DNA from: an uncultured Draconibacterium sp.
GTDB lineage: Bacteria; Bacteroidota; Bacteroidia; Bacteroidales; Prolixibacteraceae
Direction of reading: 5' to 3'
NCBI RefSeq assembly: GCF_963675585.1
Contig: NZ_OY776411.1
Span: 5,001-69,000 of the forward strand
DNA: 64,000 nt
The notes beneath the pieces are model-generated. The model had not been told where the DNA came from. It did no database searches and was given only the letters and a program-made list of their open reading frames with translations. The translations under genes were made by a program, and so were the position numbers. How positions within the stretch are numbered: the first letter of the stretch is position 1; each line of letters starts with the position of its first letter. Of this stretch, positions 7,815-53,042 are shown piece after piece.

Positions 7815-7846
7815 GCCTCTCCCTAACCCTCTCCAAAGGAGAGGGA
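7815..7846 (+). repeat. REP-like GC-rich hairpin module A
   Basis: The module consists of a left arm CTCTCCCT, then the stem CCCTCTCC (7827-7834), loop AAA, and GGAGAGGG (7838-7845). It has the same design as modules B to G in this operon. It lies four bases upstream of the NifX-like start codon. Confidence 0.65.
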
Positions 7847-7904
7847 ATTTTTGATTAATAATTATTTGTTCTTCAATCTAAATATGCTCAGGTTCTTGAT
7901 TTTT

Positions 7905-7932
7905 CCCTCCCCTTGGGGAGGTCAGGAGGGGC
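7905..7932 (-). repeat. REP-like GC-rich hairpin module B
   Basis: CTCCCC-TT-GGGGAG stem followed by the GGAGGGGC arm, in opposite orientation to module A. It ends one base before the nifB stop codon (7934). Modules A and B face each other across about 60 bp, as in BIME arrangements. Confidence 0.65.
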
Positions 7933-7933
7933 T

Positions 7934-9193: not shown

Positions 9194-9206
9194 AACTGTA
9201 TATTTT

Positions 9207-9266
9207 GCTGGAAGCGCGAAGCACAAAGTTGGAAGTAAAGCCTGCAACCTGTAACCCGCAACCTCT
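9207..9266. repeat. Heptanucleotide array between nifN and nifB
   Basis: Degenerate 7-bp units such as GGAAGCG, CGAAGCA, CAAAGTT and GGAAGTA are followed by GCAACCT, GTAACCC and GCAACCT. They fill most of the gap between the nifN stop (9284) and the nifB start. Confidence 0.5.
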
Positions 9267-9283
9267 TTTGTTTATACTTTAAA

Positions 9284-10792
9284 CTACATGTATTTATAGC
9301 CTACCGGCGATGTTGTTTGCTTGTATTCAATGAGTGCATTTACCACCTTATCAAATAATTCCTGTGTTCCGGAGTAACCAAGGTGTTTAATGCGCTGTCC
9401 ACCTATTCTGTCGTGAACCGGAAATCCTACCCGAATAATTGGAATGCCCAACTCGCGGGCAATGTAGTAGCCTTTGCTGTGCCCGATTAAAATGTCAGGT
9501 TTATTTTCCAGGCTCCATTCTTTGATACTTTCAAAGTCGAATCCTTCTTTTACCACTACTTTATCTTTATTCTCGGGACAGTATTTTTTAACCTCTTCCT
9601 CCAACATTCCGCTTTCGCCGCCCGAAGCAACCAAAGCAAGCTCAATTCCAATTTCATCAAGAAATGCTGCCATTGCTACAACAAAATCTTCTTCGCCGTA
9701 AACAACTGCTCTTTTTCCAAAAGTGTATTTATGTGCATCAACATAAGAGTCGATTAAGCGTCCCCGTTGTTTTGTATATTTTTCCGGGATTTCATTTCCC
9801 GAAAGTTCTTTTAAGGTTTCAAAAAACGTATCGGTTTGTGTTATTCCAATTGGCATTGGCATTTCAATCGACGGAACATCCATTTCGTTTTGCAGATATT
9901 TACCGCCGGTGCGCGACAGTTTTTTATTCTTTACTCGTCCGGCTAAATTCCCTTGATTCAGGATGGTTCCAAATTCGATGGATGCTTTCGCCGATCCACT
10001 TCGTTCTACATCTGCAATTGAAGTTCCACCTTCAGGAATTCGGTGATACGTGTCCCAAACCGGGTTATCCAGACTTTCGGAATAATCGGGAAGCAGGATT
10101 GAATCCAATCCAAAATCGGCTGTAATTTCTTTAATCAGTCGAATATCTTCGGTTGAAACAAAATTCGTGAACAGGTTTATATGATCCTGGCTGGGTCCTG
10201 GTAAGGCAAATTTCTTTACAACTGCCGAAACCGCTTCGTGAAATCCGTCGATGTGCGATCCCTGGTAACTGGGAGTTGATGCAATTACAAAGTCGGTGTC
10301 AATATCTTTGTATTCCTCTAAAAAATGATGCAGAAAAAGACTTACATCGTCGCCAATTGTTTCGCTCAGGCAAGTTGATGCGATTCCCACAATTTGAGGT
10401 TTGTATGAATTTATAATATTTAATACTGCCGCTTTAAAATTTTCGTCGCCGCCAAAAATGGTGGAATCCTGTGTAAAATTCGACGAGGCAATATCAATGG
10501 GTTCTTTGTAATGAGAGATCAGGTATCGGCGAATATAAGTTGCGCAGCCCTGCGAACCGTGAATTAACGGAACACAACCTTCGAAACCTTTATACGCAAC
10601 ACTTGCTCCAAGCGGAGAACACAATTTACAGGCATTTTGTGTTGCCTTGTACGCCCCTCCCGGCCTCCCCGAGGGGGAGGAGTTGGAAGCCTCCCCTAAC
10701 CCCTCCGAAGGAGGGGAACTAAGAACAGCCTCTCCCTGACCCTCTCCAAAGGAGAGGGAATTAAGAACCGTATTTCCATTTGTATTTTTCAT
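9284..10792 (-). CDS. nifN: FeMo-cofactor scaffold subunit NifN with in-frame repeat insertion
   Basis: About 502 residues; with NifE it would form the scaffold on which NifB-co matures to FeMo-cofactor. The NifN/K family features are ACKLCSPLGASVAYKGFEGC, HGSQGCATYIRRY and ASTCLSETIGDDV. The N-terminus is odd: between the start and the conserved QNACKLC segment lie about 40 low-complexity residues rich in Gly, Ser, Glu and Pro, encoded by three GC-rich hairpin modules (10653-10759) that keep the frame open. Start choice is uncertain: ATG at 10792 or GTG at 10813, directly after the nifE stop. Either leaves the insertion inside the protein. Confidence 0.93.
   Translation of the reverse strand: MKNTNGNTVLNSLSFGEGQGEAVLSSPPSEGLGEASNSSPSGRPGGAYKATQNACKLCSPLGASVAYKGFEGCVPLIHGSQGCATYIRRYLISHYKEPIDIASSNFTQDSTIFGGDENFKAAVLNIINSYKPQIVGIASTCLSETIGDDVSLFLHHFLEEYKDIDTDFVIASTPSYQGSHIDGFHEAVSAVVKKFALPGPSQDHINLFTNFVSTEDIRLIKEITADFGLDSILLPDYSESLDNPVWDTYHRIPEGGTSIADVERSGSAKASIEFGTILNQGNLAGRVKNKKLSRTGGKYLQNEMDVPSIEMPMPIGITQTDTFFETLKELSGNEIPEKYTKQRGRLIDSYVDAHKYTFGKRAVVYGEEDFVVAMAAFLDEIGIELALVASGGESGMLEEEVKKYCPENKDKVVVKEGFDFESIKEWSLENKPDILIGHSKGYYIARELGIPIIRVGFPVHDRIGGQRIKHLGYSGTQELFDKVVNALIEYKQTTSPVGYKYM
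10653..10681 (+). repeat. REP-like module C, inside nifN
   Basis: Arm CCCCTCCC followed by stem CCTCCCC-GA-GGGGGAGG. It lies within the nifN reading frame and encodes part of the Ser/Gly-rich N-terminal insertion. Confidence 0.65.
10689..10717 (+). repeat. REP-like module D, inside nifN
   Basis: Arm CCTCCCCT followed by stem CCCCTCC-GAA-GGAGGGG. It is separated from modules C and E by 7 to 10 bp and lies in frame within nifN. Confidence 0.65.
10728..10759 (+). repeat. REP-like module E, inside nifN
   Basis: Arm CTCTCCCT followed by stem CCCTCTCC-AAA-GGAGAGGG. It is nearly identical to module A at 7815-7846 (one arm difference, TGA against TAA), which shows that it is a copy of a dispersed element and not native nifN sequence. 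Confidence 0.7.
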
Positions 10793-10814
10793 TTCGCTTT
10801 TTTCTGTTGTCACA

Positions 10815-12191
10815 CTAAATGTCTTTTCTCTTCTTGCTCCTCCCCTTGGGGAGGCTGGGAGGGGCTTTGGTGAATTTCCAAACCGGACTGGTTACCGATG
10901 CAAATACCTCTTTGGCAAAGTTCATCATACCAACATATCCCGCGAGTGCTTCCTTGCGCTCGTGGTTGTGATCGCAAAACCCGAGACCGAGTTTATGGGC
11001 AATGGGACGCTCTTTTACTCCTCCAATAAAAAGGTGAGCTCCGGTAAGCTTTACAAATTCAGAAAGTTCGTTGGGATTCGAATCGTCAACGATGATTGTT
11101 CCCTCATCGCATAATTCTTTTAGCAGTTTGTAATCTTCAGCGTTTCCGGTTTGCGAGCCAACAACAACTGTTTTCATTCCGAGTAAACGAAGTGCTTTTA
11201 CCAGAGAAATGGCTTTAAAAGCGCCCCCAACATAAATGGCTGCTTTTTTGCCTTCCAGTTTTTGGCGATAAGGTTGCAGCGCCGGTAATAATTTTGAAAT
11301 CTCGTTGGTAACCAACTCACGGGCTTTTTTCATCATCTCCTCATCATCAAAAAACTTAGCTACTTCGTAAAGTGCTTCCGACATGTCTTCAATTCCGAAA
11401 TACGAAACTTTCATAAACGGAATCTCATATTTTTCCTTCATATCTTTTGCCAGGTGCATAATAGAACCCGAGCACTGAACCACATTGAGAGAAGCATGAT
11501 GAGCGCGGCGAATTTCGTCAACACGACCATCACCGGTCATGCACGCAATAATTTCGACGCCTAATTTCTTATAATATTCAGCTAAAATCCAAAGCTCGCC
11601 TGCAAGGTTAAAATCGCCAAGAATATTAATTGAATATTTAGCAGGTTTAAAATCGTTGTTTGTTCCTACCAGTCTGGCAAGTGCTTCATTCGCGATTTTA
11701 TAACCGTCTTTTTTTGTTCCGTTAAATCCTTCCGACATAACGGGAATAACATCGATGCCTTTTTCGCGGGTTACCTGGCGGCAAACTGCTTCCACATCGT
11801 CGCCAATTACACCAATAATGCAGGTTGAGAAAACAAAAGCTGCCTTGGGTTGGTGTTTATCGATTAATTCGATTAGCGAATGATATAATTTTTTCTCACC
11901 ACCAAAAACCACATCTCTTTCTTTTAAGTCGGTGGTGAAACTCAAACGGTGTAATTGCGGGCCTGAAGAAAGAGAACCCCGAATATCCCAGGTGTACGAT
12001 GCGCAACCAACCGGGCCATGAATTACATGCAAGGCGTCGGCAATGGGATAAAGTACCACACGCGAGCCGCAAAAAACACAGGCTCGTTGCGATACTGAAC
12101 CGGCAAGACTCTTTTTCCCACAAGCTATTTCAGCAGAATCTGCGCCCTTGGTGAGGATTTGGTTTTCGCGTTCTTTTAGAAATTGAGTCAT
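10815..12191 (-). CDS. nifE: FeMo-cofactor scaffold subunit NifE
   Basis: A 458-residue NifD-related protein that pairs with NifN in cofactor assembly. Typical features are the SQRACVFCGSRVVLYP segment (C38, C41), HGPVGCASYTWDIRG, FSTCIIGVIGDDVEAVC and the conserved SEGFNGTKKDGYKIA. The gap to nifN is essentially zero. The last 15 or so residues (APPSLPKGRSKKRKDI) are encoded by GC-rich hairpin module F, so the original C-terminus appears to have been replaced or extended by repeat DNA. The body of the protein looks intact. Confidence 0.95.
   Translation of the reverse strand: MTQFLKERENQILTKGADSAEIACGKKSLAGSVSQRACVFCGSRVVLYPIADALHVIHGPVGCASYTWDIRGSLSSGPQLHRLSFTTDLKERDVVFGGEKKLYHSLIELIDKHQPKAAFVFSTCIIGVIGDDVEAVCRQVTREKGIDVIPVMSEGFNGTKKDGYKIANEALARLVGTNNDFKPAKYSINILGDFNLAGELWILAEYYKKLGVEIIACMTGDGRVDEIRRAHHASLNVVQCSGSIMHLAKDMKEKYEIPFMKVSYFGIEDMSEALYEVAKFFDDEEMMKKARELVTNEISKLLPALQPYRQKLEGKKAAIYVGGAFKAISLVKALRLLGMKTVVVGSQTGNAEDYKLLKELCDEGTIIVDDSNPNELSEFVKLTGAHLFIGGVKERPIAHKLGLGFCDHNHERKEALAGYVGMMNFAKEVFASVTSPVWKFTKAPPSLPKGRSKKRKDI
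10836..10865 (-). repeat. REP-like module F, at the 3' end of nifE
   Basis: Stem CCTCCCC-TT-GGGGAGG followed by the arm GGGAGGGGC, in opposite orientation to modules C to E. It forms part of the nifE coding sequence near its stop codon. With E it makes an inverted pair at the nifE-nifN junction. Confidence 0.65.
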
Positions 12192-36406: not shown

Positions 36407-36441
36407 AAAGGATCCGATCCCTCGAAGGGATCGGATCCTTT
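36407..36441. repeat. REP hairpin R1, upstream of the RAYT gene
   Basis: Core stem GGATCCGATC / GATCGGATCC with inner pairs CCT / AGG (loop CGA). It lies 36 bp before the RAYT start and 7 bp after the ung stop. Confidence 0.85.
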
Positions 36442-36476: not shown

Positions 36477-37097
36477 ATGCCTTCAACAAAAACCATAACA
36501 CCCATTATTGGCGGCAATTACTATCACATTTTTAACCGCGGTAGTAATCATCAACTTGTCTTTTTTCAAGAAAGAAACTATTTCTATTTTCTGAATTTAA
36601 TGCGAAAATACCTTACCGAATGTATTGATATTCTTGCGTACTGTTTGCTGCCAAATCATTTTCACCTTGTTATTCGTGCAAAAGAAGAAATAAAAATTAA
36701 GGATCCGATCGCTTTGAGCGATCGGATCCTTAATGAAGAAGAAATCGGCAAATTGATCTCTGATCAGTTTCGAAAACTTTTTATTAGTTATACTCAAGCC
36801 ATTAACAAACAAGAAAACAGGACTGGTTCCTTATTTAATTCCAAATTTAAGCGGCTTGAAATAACACAACAAGAATACCTGGAATATGTTATATTTTACG
36901 TACACTATAATCCTGAAAAACATGCTGTACTTGAAAATTTCAGAGAATATAATTTTAGCTCATACAACTCGATTTTATCAAATGCCAAAACAAATTTAAA
37001 CAGGCAGCTTACATTGGATGTATTTGAAGGGAAAGCGAATTTTGAAACTTTTCACGATGGATGGCACACTGAAAAAGAAAACTTTATTCTTGAATAA
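36477..37097 (+). CDS. REP-associated tyrosine transposase (RAYT, Y1/IS200-like)
   Basis: A 206-residue single-strand transposase of the TnpA-REP family. The HUH metal motif is NHFHLVI (H61, H63). The likely catalytic tyrosine is Y141 within FYVHYNPEKHA, the position equal to YIHxNP in other RAYTs. TGSLFNSKFKR is the usual conserved centre. A perfect 17-bp hairpin copy of the flanking REP sequence is embedded in the gene (36697-36733) and encodes residues about 74-86 (KDPIALSDRI), in a variable region after the HUH motif. RAYTs are single-copy, domesticated enzymes that act on their own REP hairpins; this one is flanked by them on both sides. Confidence 0.93.
   Translation: MPSTKTITPIIGGNYYHIFNRGSNHQLVFFQERNYFYFLNLMRKYLTECIDILAYCLLPNHFHLVIRAKEEIKIKDPIALSDRILNEEEIGKLISDQFRKLFISYTQAINKQENRTGSLFNSKFKRLEITQQEYLEYVIFYVHYNPEKHAVLENFREYNFSSYNSILSNAKTNLNRQLTLDVFEGKANFETFHDGWHTEKENFILE
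36697..36733. repeat. REP hairpin R2, inside the RAYT coding sequence
   Basis: Perfect 17-bp stem with core GGATCCGATC / GATCGGATCC, inner pairs GCT / AGC and loop TTG, flanked by TTAA on both sides. In frame within the RAYT gene. Confidence 0.85.
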
Positions 37098-37101
37098 ACA
37101 A

Positions 37102-37134
37102 AAGGATCCGATCCCTTCGAGGGATCGGATCCTT
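37102..37134. repeat. REP hairpin R3, downstream of the RAYT gene
   Basis: Core GGATCCGATC / GATCGGATCC with inner pairs CCT / AGG and loop TCG. It lies between the RAYT stop (37097) and the convergent KAS III-like gene end (37142), so it may also act in transcription termination. Confidence 0.85.
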
Positions 37135-45060: not shown

Positions 45061-46512
45061 ATGTTTGATTTAAGTCATTTCTGGGGTTGGATTTATATGT
45101 TATTTCTGATAACTGCAATTCCTGTTGCTTTAATGATCATACTAGAGAAACGCTCACCCTTTAAAACGGCGGCCTGGCTAATGGTTTTAATTTTGGTTCC
45201 CATATTCGGAATTCTGTTTTTTGTTGTTTTTGGGCAGGAGTACCGCAAAACAAAAAAATTCTCGCGGAAAGGACTTAAAGGATTAAATAAATTACGAACG
45301 TTGGCATCGGAGCAATTGCGCGAAATTGGCAAAACGCATCCTGAACCTGATCATGAAATTCTCGCAAACGAAAACATAATTAAATTACTTTTAAACAACT
45401 CAAACACGCTTTTAACTACCGGCAATCAGGTTGAGCTTTTAAAAGACGGCGAAAAAACGTTTGAAGCTATTTTTACCGAAATTGAAGCAGCCCGTCATCA
45501 CATTCATCTGGAATATTACATATTTTCGGACGATAAAATTGGTAGCCGCTTAAAAGAAATACTTGTCAGAAAACGAGCCCAGGGCGTGGAAGTTCGTATA
45601 ATAGTTGACGATGTTGGAAGCTGGGATTTGCGAAAAAAATATTTTGCGGATTTACGGGTAAAAGGAATAGAAATCTTTCCTTTTATGGAAGTTCGTTTTC
45701 CTCGTTTAACTTCGCGTGTAAACTACCGGAACCACCGTAAAATTGTAATTATTGATGGCAAAATTGGTTTTATTGGAGGAATAAACATTGCCGACCGTTA
45801 TGTGGAAGGAATGCCAAAACTGGGGCACTGGCGCGATACACATTTGCAACTAAAAGGCGATGCAGCAGCCTGTTTACAAGTAATTTTTGCTGCCGACTGG
45901 TATTTTGTTTCACATAAAAACATATACGGGTACAGGTATTTTCCAAAGTTTACCGAGGCGGCGGGAACACCTATTCAGATATCGGCCAGCGGACCGGATT
46001 ACAACTGGGAAGCCATTGCACAGGCTTTTTTTGTGGCCATTAGCAATGCGCAGAAAAAAATATACCTGGTTACTCCTTATTTAATGCCTCCGCAGGCATT
46101 GCTCACCGCTTTGCAAACGGCAGCACTTAGCAACGTAGATGTGCGAATTATTATCCCCGAAAAATCGGATGCACGTTTGTCAAAATGGTGTTCGTTTTCG
46201 TATGTCGAGCAATTGCTCGAAGCGGGAGTCCGAATCTACTTTTATCAGAATGGTTTTATACACAGCAAATACCTGTTGGTTGACGATTCTTTTTCCAGTG
46301 TAGGCACCAGTAACTTTGATTTTAGAAGTTTTGAAACCAATTTTGAAGCCAATGCATTTATATACAACCGTGCGTTTTCGAAAAAACTGCAAGCGCATTT
46401 TATGGATGATTTACAAAATTCGCGCGAAATAGAATTGCCTCAGTGGCAGCAACGCTCCACATTGTTTAAAGTGCGCGAATCGCTGGCACATATTGTTAGT
46501 CCAATGTTTTAG
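45061..46512 (+). CDS. cls: Cardiolipin synthase (phospholipase D family)
   Basis: A 483-residue membrane enzyme that joins two phosphatidylglycerols into cardiolipin. Two transmembrane segments near the start (WIYMLFLITAIPVALMIIL, TAAWLMVLILVPIFGILFF) precede two HKD motifs, NHRKIVIIDGKIGFIGG and HSKYLLVDDSFSSVGTSNFD. The frame is open upstream to 44836, but that region overlaps the opposite-strand lipoprotein gene and lacks a likely start, so ATG at 45061 is used. Full length for the Cls family. Confidence 0.92.
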   Translation: MFDLSHFWGWIYMLFLITAIPVALMIILEKRSPFKTAAWLMVLILVPIFGILFFVVFGQEYRKTKKFSRKGLKGLNKLRTLASEQLREIGKTHPEPDHEILANENIIKLLLNNSNTLLTTGNQVELLKDGEKTFEAIFTEIEAARHHIHLEYYIFSDDKIGSRLKEILVRKRAQGVEVRIIVDDVGSWDLRKKYFADLRVKGIEIFPFMEVRFPRLTSRVNYRNHRKIVIIDGKIGFIGGINIADRYVEGMPKLGHWRDTHLQLKGDAAACLQVIFAADWYFVSHKNIYGYRYFPKFTEAAGTPIQISASGPDYNWEAIAQAFFVAISNAQKKIYLVTPYLMPPQALLTALQTAALSNVDVRIIIPEKSDARLSKWCSFSYVEQLLEAGVRIYFYQNGFIHSKYLLVDDSFSSVGTSNFDFRSFETNFEANAFIYNRAFSKKLQAHFMDDLQNSREIELPQWQQRSTLFKVRESLAHIVSPMF

Positions 46513-46552: not shown

Positions 46553-46833
46553 CCTCGTTTTTTTGTTATATCCCCCAAGGGGATTATTATGTGCCCCAAC
46601 ATTTTTGCATCGTGCCCCCTGGGGATAGCTTTATGCCCCAATATTTTTGCGTTGTGCCCCAAGGGGATCGCTCTTCGAAAACAGGGGCAGATAAGATGCC
46701 CCAAGGGGATGGCTTTGTGCCTCATCTTTTTTGCGTTGTGCCCCGAGGGGATCGTTTCGTGCCCCTTGGGGACGGCTTTGTGAAAACAGGGGATAATCTT
46801 TCGCCCCCGGGGGATAATCCTGAACCCCTAATC
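46553..46833. repeat. 21-bp-period array of CCCC-NN-GGGG dyads
   Basis: Thirteen units start at 46573, 46594, 46615, 46636, 46657, 46678, 46699, 46720, 46741, 46762, 46783, 46804 and 46825, each exactly 21 bp apart, with one more at 46553 offset by one base in a T-run. Seven units hold a full dyad CCCC-NN-GGGG; others keep only the CCCC half with an ATTTTTGC tail, or only the GGGG half after GAAAACA. Types largely alternate, giving a 42-bp super-period. Because 21 is divisible by three, short open frames with heptapeptide repeats appear on both strands. I see no start signal and do not call a gene. The rest of the 370-bp gap to 46883 is empty. Confidence 0.85.
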
Positions 46834-48538: not shown

Positions 48539-49483
48539 TTAATTAGTATCGTTGAAAAAGAAAGCTTCCACACCTTTTACACCCAGCCGGGTCTTAAAAA
48601 CTCCACCTGCACTTGGAAATTTGGCAAGCTCTTCTTCGCTTGTTGATTCGCGGGCTGTTGTTATATAAAGTGTTCCCAAATCGTCGTCGCCAAAGGCACA
48701 CGAAGTTACATTTTTAGCTGGCACATCAATTGTACGAATCAATACCCCGGTTTCAGGATTCCAGCAGGCAACTGCTGAGCCTCCCCAAAGAGCCACCCAG
48801 ATATTTCCATCGTCATCAATGGTCATTCCATCGGGCGAGCCCATTTCTTCGGGAACTTCAACAGCAGTTTTCGGATTGCCGATTTCGCCGGTTTCATTGT
48901 TGTAATCGTAAGCCACCACTTTTTGCGTAGGTGTATCAATGTAGTACATTTTTGTTTTATCGCGCGACCATACAATCCCGTTTGAGATGCTTACGTTTTC
49001 AATCATTTTATGAATGGTTGTATCCCGGTCGAGCCGGTAAAGTGCCGCCACACCTTTTTCGCCGGTGGTACTTAAAGTACCTGCCCAGAATCTTCCTGCC
49101 GGATCACATTTTCCATCGTTAAAGCGGTTGTCTGGCAAATCGGCCTCCGGATCGACAAGTAATTTCTTAGAGCCGGTTTTTGTATCGAAAGCATAAATGC
49201 CATTTTGTAAAGCCACCAACACATAGCCCGTTTCCGTGGGAACTACAGTGCCTATCATTTGTCCGGTTAACATTTCTCGATTGCTTCCGGTAAGTGGATT
49301 GTAAAAATTCAGGATTTTCCCTTTAATGTTAATCCACATCAACTCACCGGTTTTATAATTCCAGATTGCCCCCTCGCCCAAAGTCGATTTTGAATCAATC
49401 ACCAATTCCACTTCAGCCGTATTTTGTCTTAAACAAGCGACTAAATTCAATAGTACAATTCCAATTAGAAGGATTTTTTTCAT
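48539..49483 (-). CDS. SMP-30/gluconolactonase-family lipoprotein
   Basis: A 314-residue six-bladed propeller, probably exported: the start MKKILLIGIVLLNLVACLRQ has the lipobox-like LVAC. Family signatures are LGEGAIWNYKTGELMWINI, RFNDGKCDPAGRFWAGTLS, SNGIVWSRDKTKMYYIDTP and GSPDGMTIDDDGNIWVALWGG, including the metal-binding Glu, Asn and Asp positions. Likely a calcium- or zinc-dependent sugar lactonase. It starts the three-gene operon with the PrsW-like and dehydratase genes. Confidence 0.9.
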   Translation of the reverse strand: MKKILLIGIVLLNLVACLRQNTAEVELVIDSKSTLGEGAIWNYKTGELMWINIKGKILNFYNPLTGSNREMLTGQMIGTVVPTETGYVLVALQNGIYAFDTKTGSKKLLVDPEADLPDNRFNDGKCDPAGRFWAGTLSTTGEKGVAALYRLDRDTTIHKMIENVSISNGIVWSRDKTKMYYIDTPTQKVVAYDYNNETGEIGNPKTAVEVPEEMGSPDGMTIDDDGNIWVALWGGSAVACWNPETGVLIRTIDVPAKNVTSCAFGDDDLGTLYITTARESTSEEELAKFPSAGGVFKTRLGVKGVEAFFFNDTN

Positions 49484-49487
49484 GCTA

Positions 49488-49620
49488 TTTGATTCTGGAT
49501 GCTGGATACTTGATTCTGGATTCTGGATTCTTGATTCTGGATATTTGATACTTGATGCTGGATGATGGATGCTGGATACTGGATATTTGATACTGGATGC
49601 TGGATGTTGGATGCTGTAGC
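49488..49620. repeat. Heptanucleotide array I, consensus CTGGATN
   Basis: Nineteen consecutive 7-bp units without a phase break, such as CTGGATG, CTGGATA, CTTGATT, CTGGATT, TTTGATA and CTGGATG. It begins at the start region of the SMP-30 gene (49483) and fills the gap upstream of it. Confidence 0.85.
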
Positions 49621-49622
49621 TT

Positions 49623-49734
49623 TCTGAACTCTGAACTCTGAACTCTAAACTCTGAACTCTAAACTCTAAACTCTGAACCCTGAACTTTGAACTCTAAACC
49701 CTGAACTTTGAACTCTAAACCCTGAACTCTAAAC
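49623..49734. repeat. Heptanucleotide array II, consensus TCTGAAC
   Basis: Sixteen consecutive 7-bp units, mixing TCTGAAC, TCTAAAC, CCTGAAC and TTTGAAC, follow array I directly and run to within three bases of the punA stop (49737). Two different consensus units with the same period lie back to back. The 253-bp gap holds nothing else that I can see. Confidence 0.85.
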
Positions 49735-49736
49735 TT

Positions 49737-50549
49737 CTACAAACTCTGAATCAGCTCTTTCATAATCAGTGTCATTTTAGGCTCAGCTTTCATGGCCACT
49801 TCCTGCACTTCTTCATGCGATATTTCCACAATTTCGCCGGGCACACCACTGTCGGTAACTATTGAAATACCAAACACTTTAATGTCCATATGAACGGCAA
49901 CAATCACCTCAGGCACTGTCGACATTCCCACCACATCGGCACCTAAAATCCTGAACATTTTATATTCGGCAGGAGTTTCAAAAGTTGGCCCCGAAACACC
50001 CACATAAACACCTTCTTTCACATCGATATTATGTTGCAGTGCAATTAATTTGGCTTTGTTTCGCAAACGCTGGTCGTAACATTTACTCATGTCGGGGAAA
50101 CGTGGCCCCAGATCCTTGTTGTTTTTTCCACGCAGCGGATGATCGGGAAAAAAGTTGATGTGATCGTTAATAACCACAATCTCACCCACTTTCCAATCCG
50201 GATTTAAACCACCGCTCGCATTCGATACAAACAAGTGTGTAATTCCCACATATTTTAGCACACGCACCGGGAAAGTTACTTCTTTCATATCGTAACCTTC
50301 GTAATAATGGAAACGGCCCTGCATTGCCAATACTTCCTTATCTCCCAGCTTACCATAAATTAAACGACCTGCATGACCATCAACGGTTGAAACAGGAAAA
50401 TTAGGTATTTCGTTGTATGGAATCGAATCAATAATTTCAATTTCGTTCACCAAACCACCCAGCCCGGTTCCTAAGATAATACCTACCTCAGGACTTGCCT
50501 GAATTCTTTCTTTTATGAAGCTCGCGGTTGCTTTTATTTTCTCCAACAT
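49737..50549 (-). CDS. punA: Purine nucleoside phosphorylase
   Basis: A 270-residue trimeric-type PNP that splits inosine and guanosine for purine salvage. The N-terminal phosphate site is VGIILGTGLGGLV, followed by FHYYEGYDM, SNASGGLNPDW and the catalytic GPTFETPAEYKMFRILGADVVGMST. The conserved start (MLEKIKATASFIKERI) lies within the last 62 bases of lpxK in a different frame, so the two genes overlap. Downstream are the heptanucleotide arrays. Confidence 0.93.
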   Translation of the reverse strand: MLEKIKATASFIKERIQASPEVGIILGTGLGGLVNEIEIIDSIPYNEIPNFPVSTVDGHAGRLIYGKLGDKEVLAMQGRFHYYEGYDMKEVTFPVRVLKYVGITHLFVSNASGGLNPDWKVGEIVVINDHINFFPDHPLRGKNNKDLGPRFPDMSKCYDQRLRNKAKLIALQHNIDVKEGVYVGVSGPTFETPAEYKMFRILGADVVGMSTVPEVIVAVHMDIKVFGISIVTDSGVPGEIVEISHEEVQEVAMKAEPKMTLIMKELIQSL

Positions 50550-53001: not shown

Positions 53002-53042
53002 AAAAAAGGATCCGATCTTTTTGAAAGATCGGATCCTTTTTT
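53002..53042. repeat. REP hairpin R4, distant copy
   Basis: Core GGATCCGATC / GATCGGATCC with inner pairs TTT / AAA, loop TTG, and A- and T-tracts outside. It lies 16 kb from the RAYT gene, in the gap between the membrane protein gene and sppA, and could act as a terminator for both. Confidence 0.8.

Follow-up and report, generated by a model that had tools for sequence, protein, structure and literature searches.

Palindromic modules in frame at the NifN start of a Draconibacterium genome and their proposed link to DUF559 nuclease elements

Modules at the nifE-nifN junction

The window, i.e., the whole stretch of 64,000 nt that was analysed, belongs to a Draconibacterium genome of 6.03 Mb in four contigs (G000) and carries nifE, then nifN, on the minus strand. 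The nifE gene (10815–12191) matched NCBIfam TIGR01283 at 626 bits. The ORF that follows (9284–10792 from its ATG, with an alternative GTG at 10813) matched Pfam PF00148; its product scored 295 bits against NifN, where the cut-off is 326.8, and 299 bits against NifK, so that the name NifN rests on gene order after nifE. This ORF opens with a leader, MKNTNGNTVLN(S), that includes the start codon (10761–10792), and then passes through three forward modules on the same strand: E (10729–10760), D (10688–10719) and C (10652–10683), reading SLSFGEGQGEA, SPPSEGLGEA and SSPSGRPGGA respectively. The native YKATQ follows module C directly. An earlier note on this DNA had claimed three hairpin modules in frame at the NifN N-terminus, and this was confirmed. 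In each module, a pyrimidine arm of 7–8 nt and its complementary purine arm enclose a short loop, and a third arm, again of purines, follows after a spacer of 3 nt. A reverse module on the plus strand (10836–10866) belongs to the nifE-nifN pair, while a second inverted pair comprises a reverse module abutting the nifB stop (7902–7933, plus strand) and module A (7816–7847, minus strand), which is unfused and lies 5 nt before the ATG of a nifX-like gene. At Rfam gathering thresholds, only 16S rRNA and two tRNAs were matched.

The NifN N-terminus translates as MKNTNGNTVLNSLSFGEGQGEAVLSSPPSEGLGEASNSSPSGRPGGAYKATQNACKLC, and modules E, D and C, in reading order, make up most of the extension; the module-encoded segment includes SLSFGEGQGEAVLSS. 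In place of the 47 residues ahead of YKATQ, the closest relative, the 96%-identical Draconibacterium aestuarii (L039), carries 13 (MFELNSVQKQKST), and NifN measures 502 aa in the window against 468 aa in that relative. There was therefore a net gain of 34 residues, with the native start segment replaced and not merely interrupted. The NifN leader recurs near-verbatim in Maribellus maritimus (MKNTNGNTILNS). An AlphaFold model of NifN, made with nine sequences, had a mean pLDDT of 46.1, too low for use.

On the other side of the junction, the reverse module encodes a C-terminal extension and reads as the end of NifE (WKFTKAPPSLPKGRSKKRKDI followed by the stop codon); the nifE of Maribellus sediminis stops directly past WKFIK. 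The NifE of D. aestuarii (L039/L004) also runs past WKF, through another repeat-like sequence, and a GTCCCCCTTAAATAAGGGGGAC hairpin lies nearby. Given this other extension, the nifE-nifN junction looks insertion-prone. A different repeat-like stretch (GTAACCCGCAACC...), outside the module family, occupies the nifN-nifB junction (9200–9283).

An open frame across the modules is weak evidence of translation when taken alone, since 19.7% of 2000 dinucleotide shuffles were also open in a given frame. Both other frames across the region held stops. From the modules to the conserved QNACK segment of the window's NifN there was no ATG, GTG or TTG; the first such codon in frame past the leader ATG was a TTG at codon 57, within the CKLC of a QNACKLC motif that was invariant in nine aligned NifNs. 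This agrees with the earlier note, which had seen no start with a conserved N-terminus near 10640. Its description of E as a near copy of A also held (97% identity over 35 nt, 7815–7849), as did its statement that the modules are free of stops in the NifN frame. The single difference between the two copies is a CAG in E where A has TAG, such that A in the register of E would read NSLSFGEG*GE; module A itself lies untranslated ahead of the nifX-like gene. With the next start at codon 57, the other frames stopped and TAG changed to CAG in E, the sequence strongly implies that NifN is translated through all three modules. Insertion and readthrough at nifN are strongly supported.

Empty and filled sites and the wider module family

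NifN was present in 18 of 61 searched genomes (this one included). Fifteen had a short, module-free N-terminus, beginning MFELN in 13 cases and MFETN in two, and the nearest relative was among them. Modules were carried by the NifN of this genome, of G010 (locus of M. maritimus, L038) and of G029, the last being frameshifted near residue 411. Phylum-wide, NifN matches occurred in 84 of 395 genomes, again including this one, and 30 loci were retrieved; the 29 from other genomes had short starts without modules, with three chance-level model matches in 121 kb. A low-complexity start is not, therefore, a general property of NifN. A weak module match was found at the same NifN position in a Chlorobiota MAG (L041; 22.7 bits, E 0.0055), where the NifN frame is broken after 61 codons.

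The existence of both empty (15/18) and filled (3/18) sites among relatives bears out the earlier suggestion of repeat insertion into nifN, with the amendments that the native N-terminus was replaced, together with its start codon, by that of the element, and that NifE was extended too. In a tree of the NifN core, the three module-bearing proteins stood apart, being grouped in 0 of 200 bootstrap trees, and supported branches forced three gains or losses, so that inheritance of the modules from one ancestor is disfavoured. Transfer of the nifE-nifN junction between lineages is possible, as G000 and G010 both have the leader MKNTNGNT.

The family was searched with a covariance model for which nifN loci supplied all 19 training copies; modules C, D and E are among these copies, so that their own scores follow by construction. 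The model marked 100 modules in 62 sources. This genome held at least eight strong copies, six of them in the nif locus (150 of 628 candidates scored), and 22 relatives held 0–29 modules each, which are lower bounds from 150 candidates scored per genome. Neighbouring modules in opposite orientation faced outward in 20 of 20 instances (-+), and inward (+-) in none, at gaps of 48–105 nt, although some of these pairs are orthologous. At operon junctions, the reverse module often lay 0–4 nt beyond the upstream stop, and an ATG with approximately 10–12 codons preceded a forward module fused to the next gene.

Such N-terminal fusions were observed in 17 genes from seven genomes (NifN 3, NifB 3, NifX-like 1, TrpG 6, dehydrogenase-like 2, ABC ATPase 2), in a scan that took ORFs by a longest-ORF rule and so included spurious small ones; ten of the fusion proteins were checked by Pfam. 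Four of 15 fusions examined retain an in-frame ATG, GTG or TTG inside or just past the module (G010 NifN, G029 NifB, G010 NifX and G017 ABC), and those common to G010 and G031 may represent one event inherited by both. The trpE-trpG junction was filled at 6 of 30 loci, the other 24 having the native M(K/N)I start. In the junction DNA of valyl-tRNA synthetase (ValRS), TrpG and NifN, host bases were replaced and no clear target-site duplication was resolved.

Several other repeats were noted in the window. A different perfect palindrome, AAGGATCCGATC-N9-GATCGGATCCTT, has six copies in the genome at no more than one mismatch, four of them in the window (36408–36440, 36699–36731, 37102–37134 and 53006–53038). 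At 46570–46807, just past an ORF ending at 46512, lies a degenerate repeat, about 42 nt long, with hairpins of the GTGCCCCAAGGGGAT type. Two arrays built from 7-nt units, the first CTGGATT-like and the second CTGAACT-like, lie around the end and start of adjacent ORFs at 49459–49755.

Modules beside DUF559 nucleases

In this genome, a DUF559 domain (PF04480; E 1.1e-32) bounded by modules lies inside ValRS and keeps the reading frame on either side; where the site is empty, the sequence is KLYYLKYKIEGEDEFVTIATTRPET. Among 30 ValRS loci, five had the full insert, three had module remnants without the nuclease and 22 were empty, counts in which shared descent and homing are pooled. Loss of the nuclease is thereby seen at one site. 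The isoleucyl-tRNA synthetase (IleRS) of G010 and G031 was split by the same arrangement of modules and DUF559. Besides its DUF559 insert, the ValRS of G029 has, at another site (L097:1515–1546), an extra module in frame that reads KHPSLGGEGGG, and the second DUF559 gene of this genome lies in a 122-aa frame at G000:C1:858868–859173.

The start of NifN (NTVLNSLSFGEGQGEA) and the tail of IleRS-DUF559 (TTVLNSLPLGEGLGGA) are alike and in the same register, and the ValRS-DUF559 tail (DVLNSPPSGEQEGA) resembles both. The 14 nt upstream of module E matched the ValRS-DUF559 tail at 10 of 14 positions, and in one copy from M. maritimus the figure was 13 of 14. The nif cluster contained no annotated DUF559 gene, and the link is therefore by end sequence; the first eight codons of the NifN leader had no match among the nuclease sequences examined. 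Judged from the ends, there are good grounds to regard the NifN modules as kin to DUF559 elements, themselves known from genes that lie outside the window, and the nif copy would then derive from such an element through nuclease loss.

A module lay within 170 nt of DUF559 at 22 of 30 loci in the genus and 22 of 30 in the phylum, a limit picked after seeing the data (100 nt gives 22 and 19 of 30; 300 nt gives 22 and 23 of 30). Both sides were occupied at 13 of 30 loci in each set, and 8 of 30 in each had no module within 170 nt. Modules scoring at least 22 bits accompanied only 12 of 30 genus and 10 of 30 phylum loci. These loci were the best-scoring 30 of each search and not a random draw, and the model that scored them had been trained solely on copies from the nif locus.

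DUF559 was carried by 84 of 198 genomes across the phylum, and 32 of the 150 matches listed sat in open frames of at least 250 aa by hand count. Pfam-checked proteins showed it interrupting LeuRS, MetH, RecG, HsdM, an Eco57I-type methylase and an M23 peptidase, and joined to the front of RNase HI and QueG through module-like linkers; one other consisted of DUF559-type domains only. In the RNase HI and QueG fusions, the full element thus acts as the remnant does at NifN. No protein-splicing Pfam domain occurred in the ValRS, IleRS, LeuRS, MetH or RecG hosts. A search of the open-access literature, mostly titles and abstracts, found no description of the origin of in-frame DUF559 in tRNA synthetases, MetH and RecG.

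Compared with PDB, DUF559 matched 3hrl (1e-18) and, weakly, 3r3p (0.0016), a 'Mobile intron protein' that we take to be I-Bth0305I. A DUF559 protein has been assigned to the PD-(D/E)XK superfamily together with Vsr (2026; PMC12907096). From these likenesses and this placement, cutting followed by repair is proposed as a reasonable means of moving the modules.

Origin of the modules and known systems

The NifN extension is probably a nuclease-less derivative of a DUF559 element, consisting of module ends and bringing its own start codon. The modules would be the palindromic termini, in inverted orientation, of a small mobile element, the full form of which has a gene for the DUF559 nuclease (Vsr-fold, PD-(D/E)XK-type), and the nifE-nifN junction would hold a derivative of about 0.2 kb without that gene. 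This derivative would start with a reversed module, followed by about 75 nt, an ATG of its own with a short leader, and one or more forward modules. On insertion, it would have replaced the original nifN start, such that nifN would be translated from the element's ATG via one forward module and its tandem copies, three in all, while nifE would read into the reversed module. The NifN extension would, in other words, be the 3' end of a DUF559 element, tandem-multiplied and with the nuclease lost. The nuclease may move the module ends by cutting and repair, in the fashion of a homing endonuclease; deletion or repair around the break would fit the replaced host bases at the junctions. It is suggested more tentatively that these elements form a class that is coding throughout, in its Vsr-fold nuclease gene as well as in its palindromic ends, and that resides, in frame and unspliced, in essential genes, while nuclease-less offspring seize the start of the next gene at operon junctions (NifN, NifB, TrpG and others).

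It is unlikely that the modules are an intergenic REP or hairpin family moved by a RAYT transposase, whose N-terminal reading is incidental. Outward palindrome pairs at operon junctions resemble REP dimers, intragenic REPs are described (PMC3733652) and G000 has 11 Y1_Tnp matches; however, 31 Y1_Tnp (PF01797) loci, amounting to 101 kb, contained no module match at E≤1, on which finding mobilisation by RAYT was dropped, while the module consensus has no GTAG or CGTC tag by eye and the modules adjoin DUF559 instead. A role as conserved regulatory hairpins of the nif and trp operons (i.e., in mRNA stability or translational coupling), coding by chance, seems quite improbable. Their patchy occurrence is at odds with it, given their absence from 15 of 18 NifN and 24 of 30 TrpG starts and a range of 0–29 per genome among the 22 relatives (lower bounds), as is their presence within ValRS and IleRS, despite their position at stop-start junctions and the concentration of six of at least eight strong modules of this genome in the nif locus.

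The supposition that the start is misannotated, with NifN beginning downstream and the modules forming an untranslated leader, is very improbable indeed. Apparent intragenic REPs at N-termini often stem from annotation errors (PMC3733652), but a start at the TTG would fall inside the CKLC of the invariant QNACKLC, and a downstream start was dropped for the window's NifN, although an unusual start codon is conceivable.

In-frame coding palindromes are already known from Rickettsia palindromic elements (RPEs), intragenic REPs and RU elements. As far as the open-access literature shows, partnership with a DUF559 nuclease, persistence inside essential genes in frame and without splicing, and the takeover of start codons in operons are new. 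If correct, the derivation of the NifN extension from a DUF559 element would supply a candidate mover for coding palindromes, long a Rickettsia curiosity with no known mover, would point to a testable way for selfish DNA to reshape start codons and the ends of proteins within conserved operons, and would account for the in-frame DUF559 domains of tRNA synthetases, MetH and RecG.

REPs and REPINs with RAYT (PMC3733652) are likewise short palindromes and inverted dimers, some inside ORFs, but differ in their GTAG/CGTC tag, which the modules lack, and no module lay beside a Y1 transposase in the 31 loci. MITEs with reading frames, such as the enterobacterial RU elements (PMC2759123), are similar in size (about 0.1–0.2 kb), inverted ends and ORFs fused to host genes; here, a DUF559 nuclease and not an IS transposase would be the autonomous partner. 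Inverted ends with 48–105 nt between them fit the terminal-repeat definition of MITEs (70–300 bp, no coding capacity), although the derivative carries a short frame. PARCELs (PMC2996958) are also coding palindromic repeats in tandem that are thought to spread horizontally, but comprise another, amphipathic motif of 25 residues, mostly in ORFs of unknown function. Homing endonucleases of the EDxHD family (I-Bth0305I; PMC3943268) share a Vsr-type nuclease, conserved genes and recurrent sites, as in the ValRS site that is occupied or empty among relatives, whereas no intron or intein is involved here and the nuclease remains part of the protein it has entered.

The RPEs are palindromic repeats in frame inside genes of working proteins (PMC10969869, PMC3733652), and the nifN modules are also palindromic and in frame, open through all three copies with no other start. 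Set beside RPEs by description, the modules differ in their occurrence in Bacteroidota, their length of about 32 nt, their outward pairing, their position at operon junctions, to which they bring a start codon, and the ends held in common with a nuclease element. The earlier note had considered RPEs the only good precedent; the in-frame likeness stands, but intragenic REPs and RU elements are precedents too, and DUF559 elements are nearer kin.
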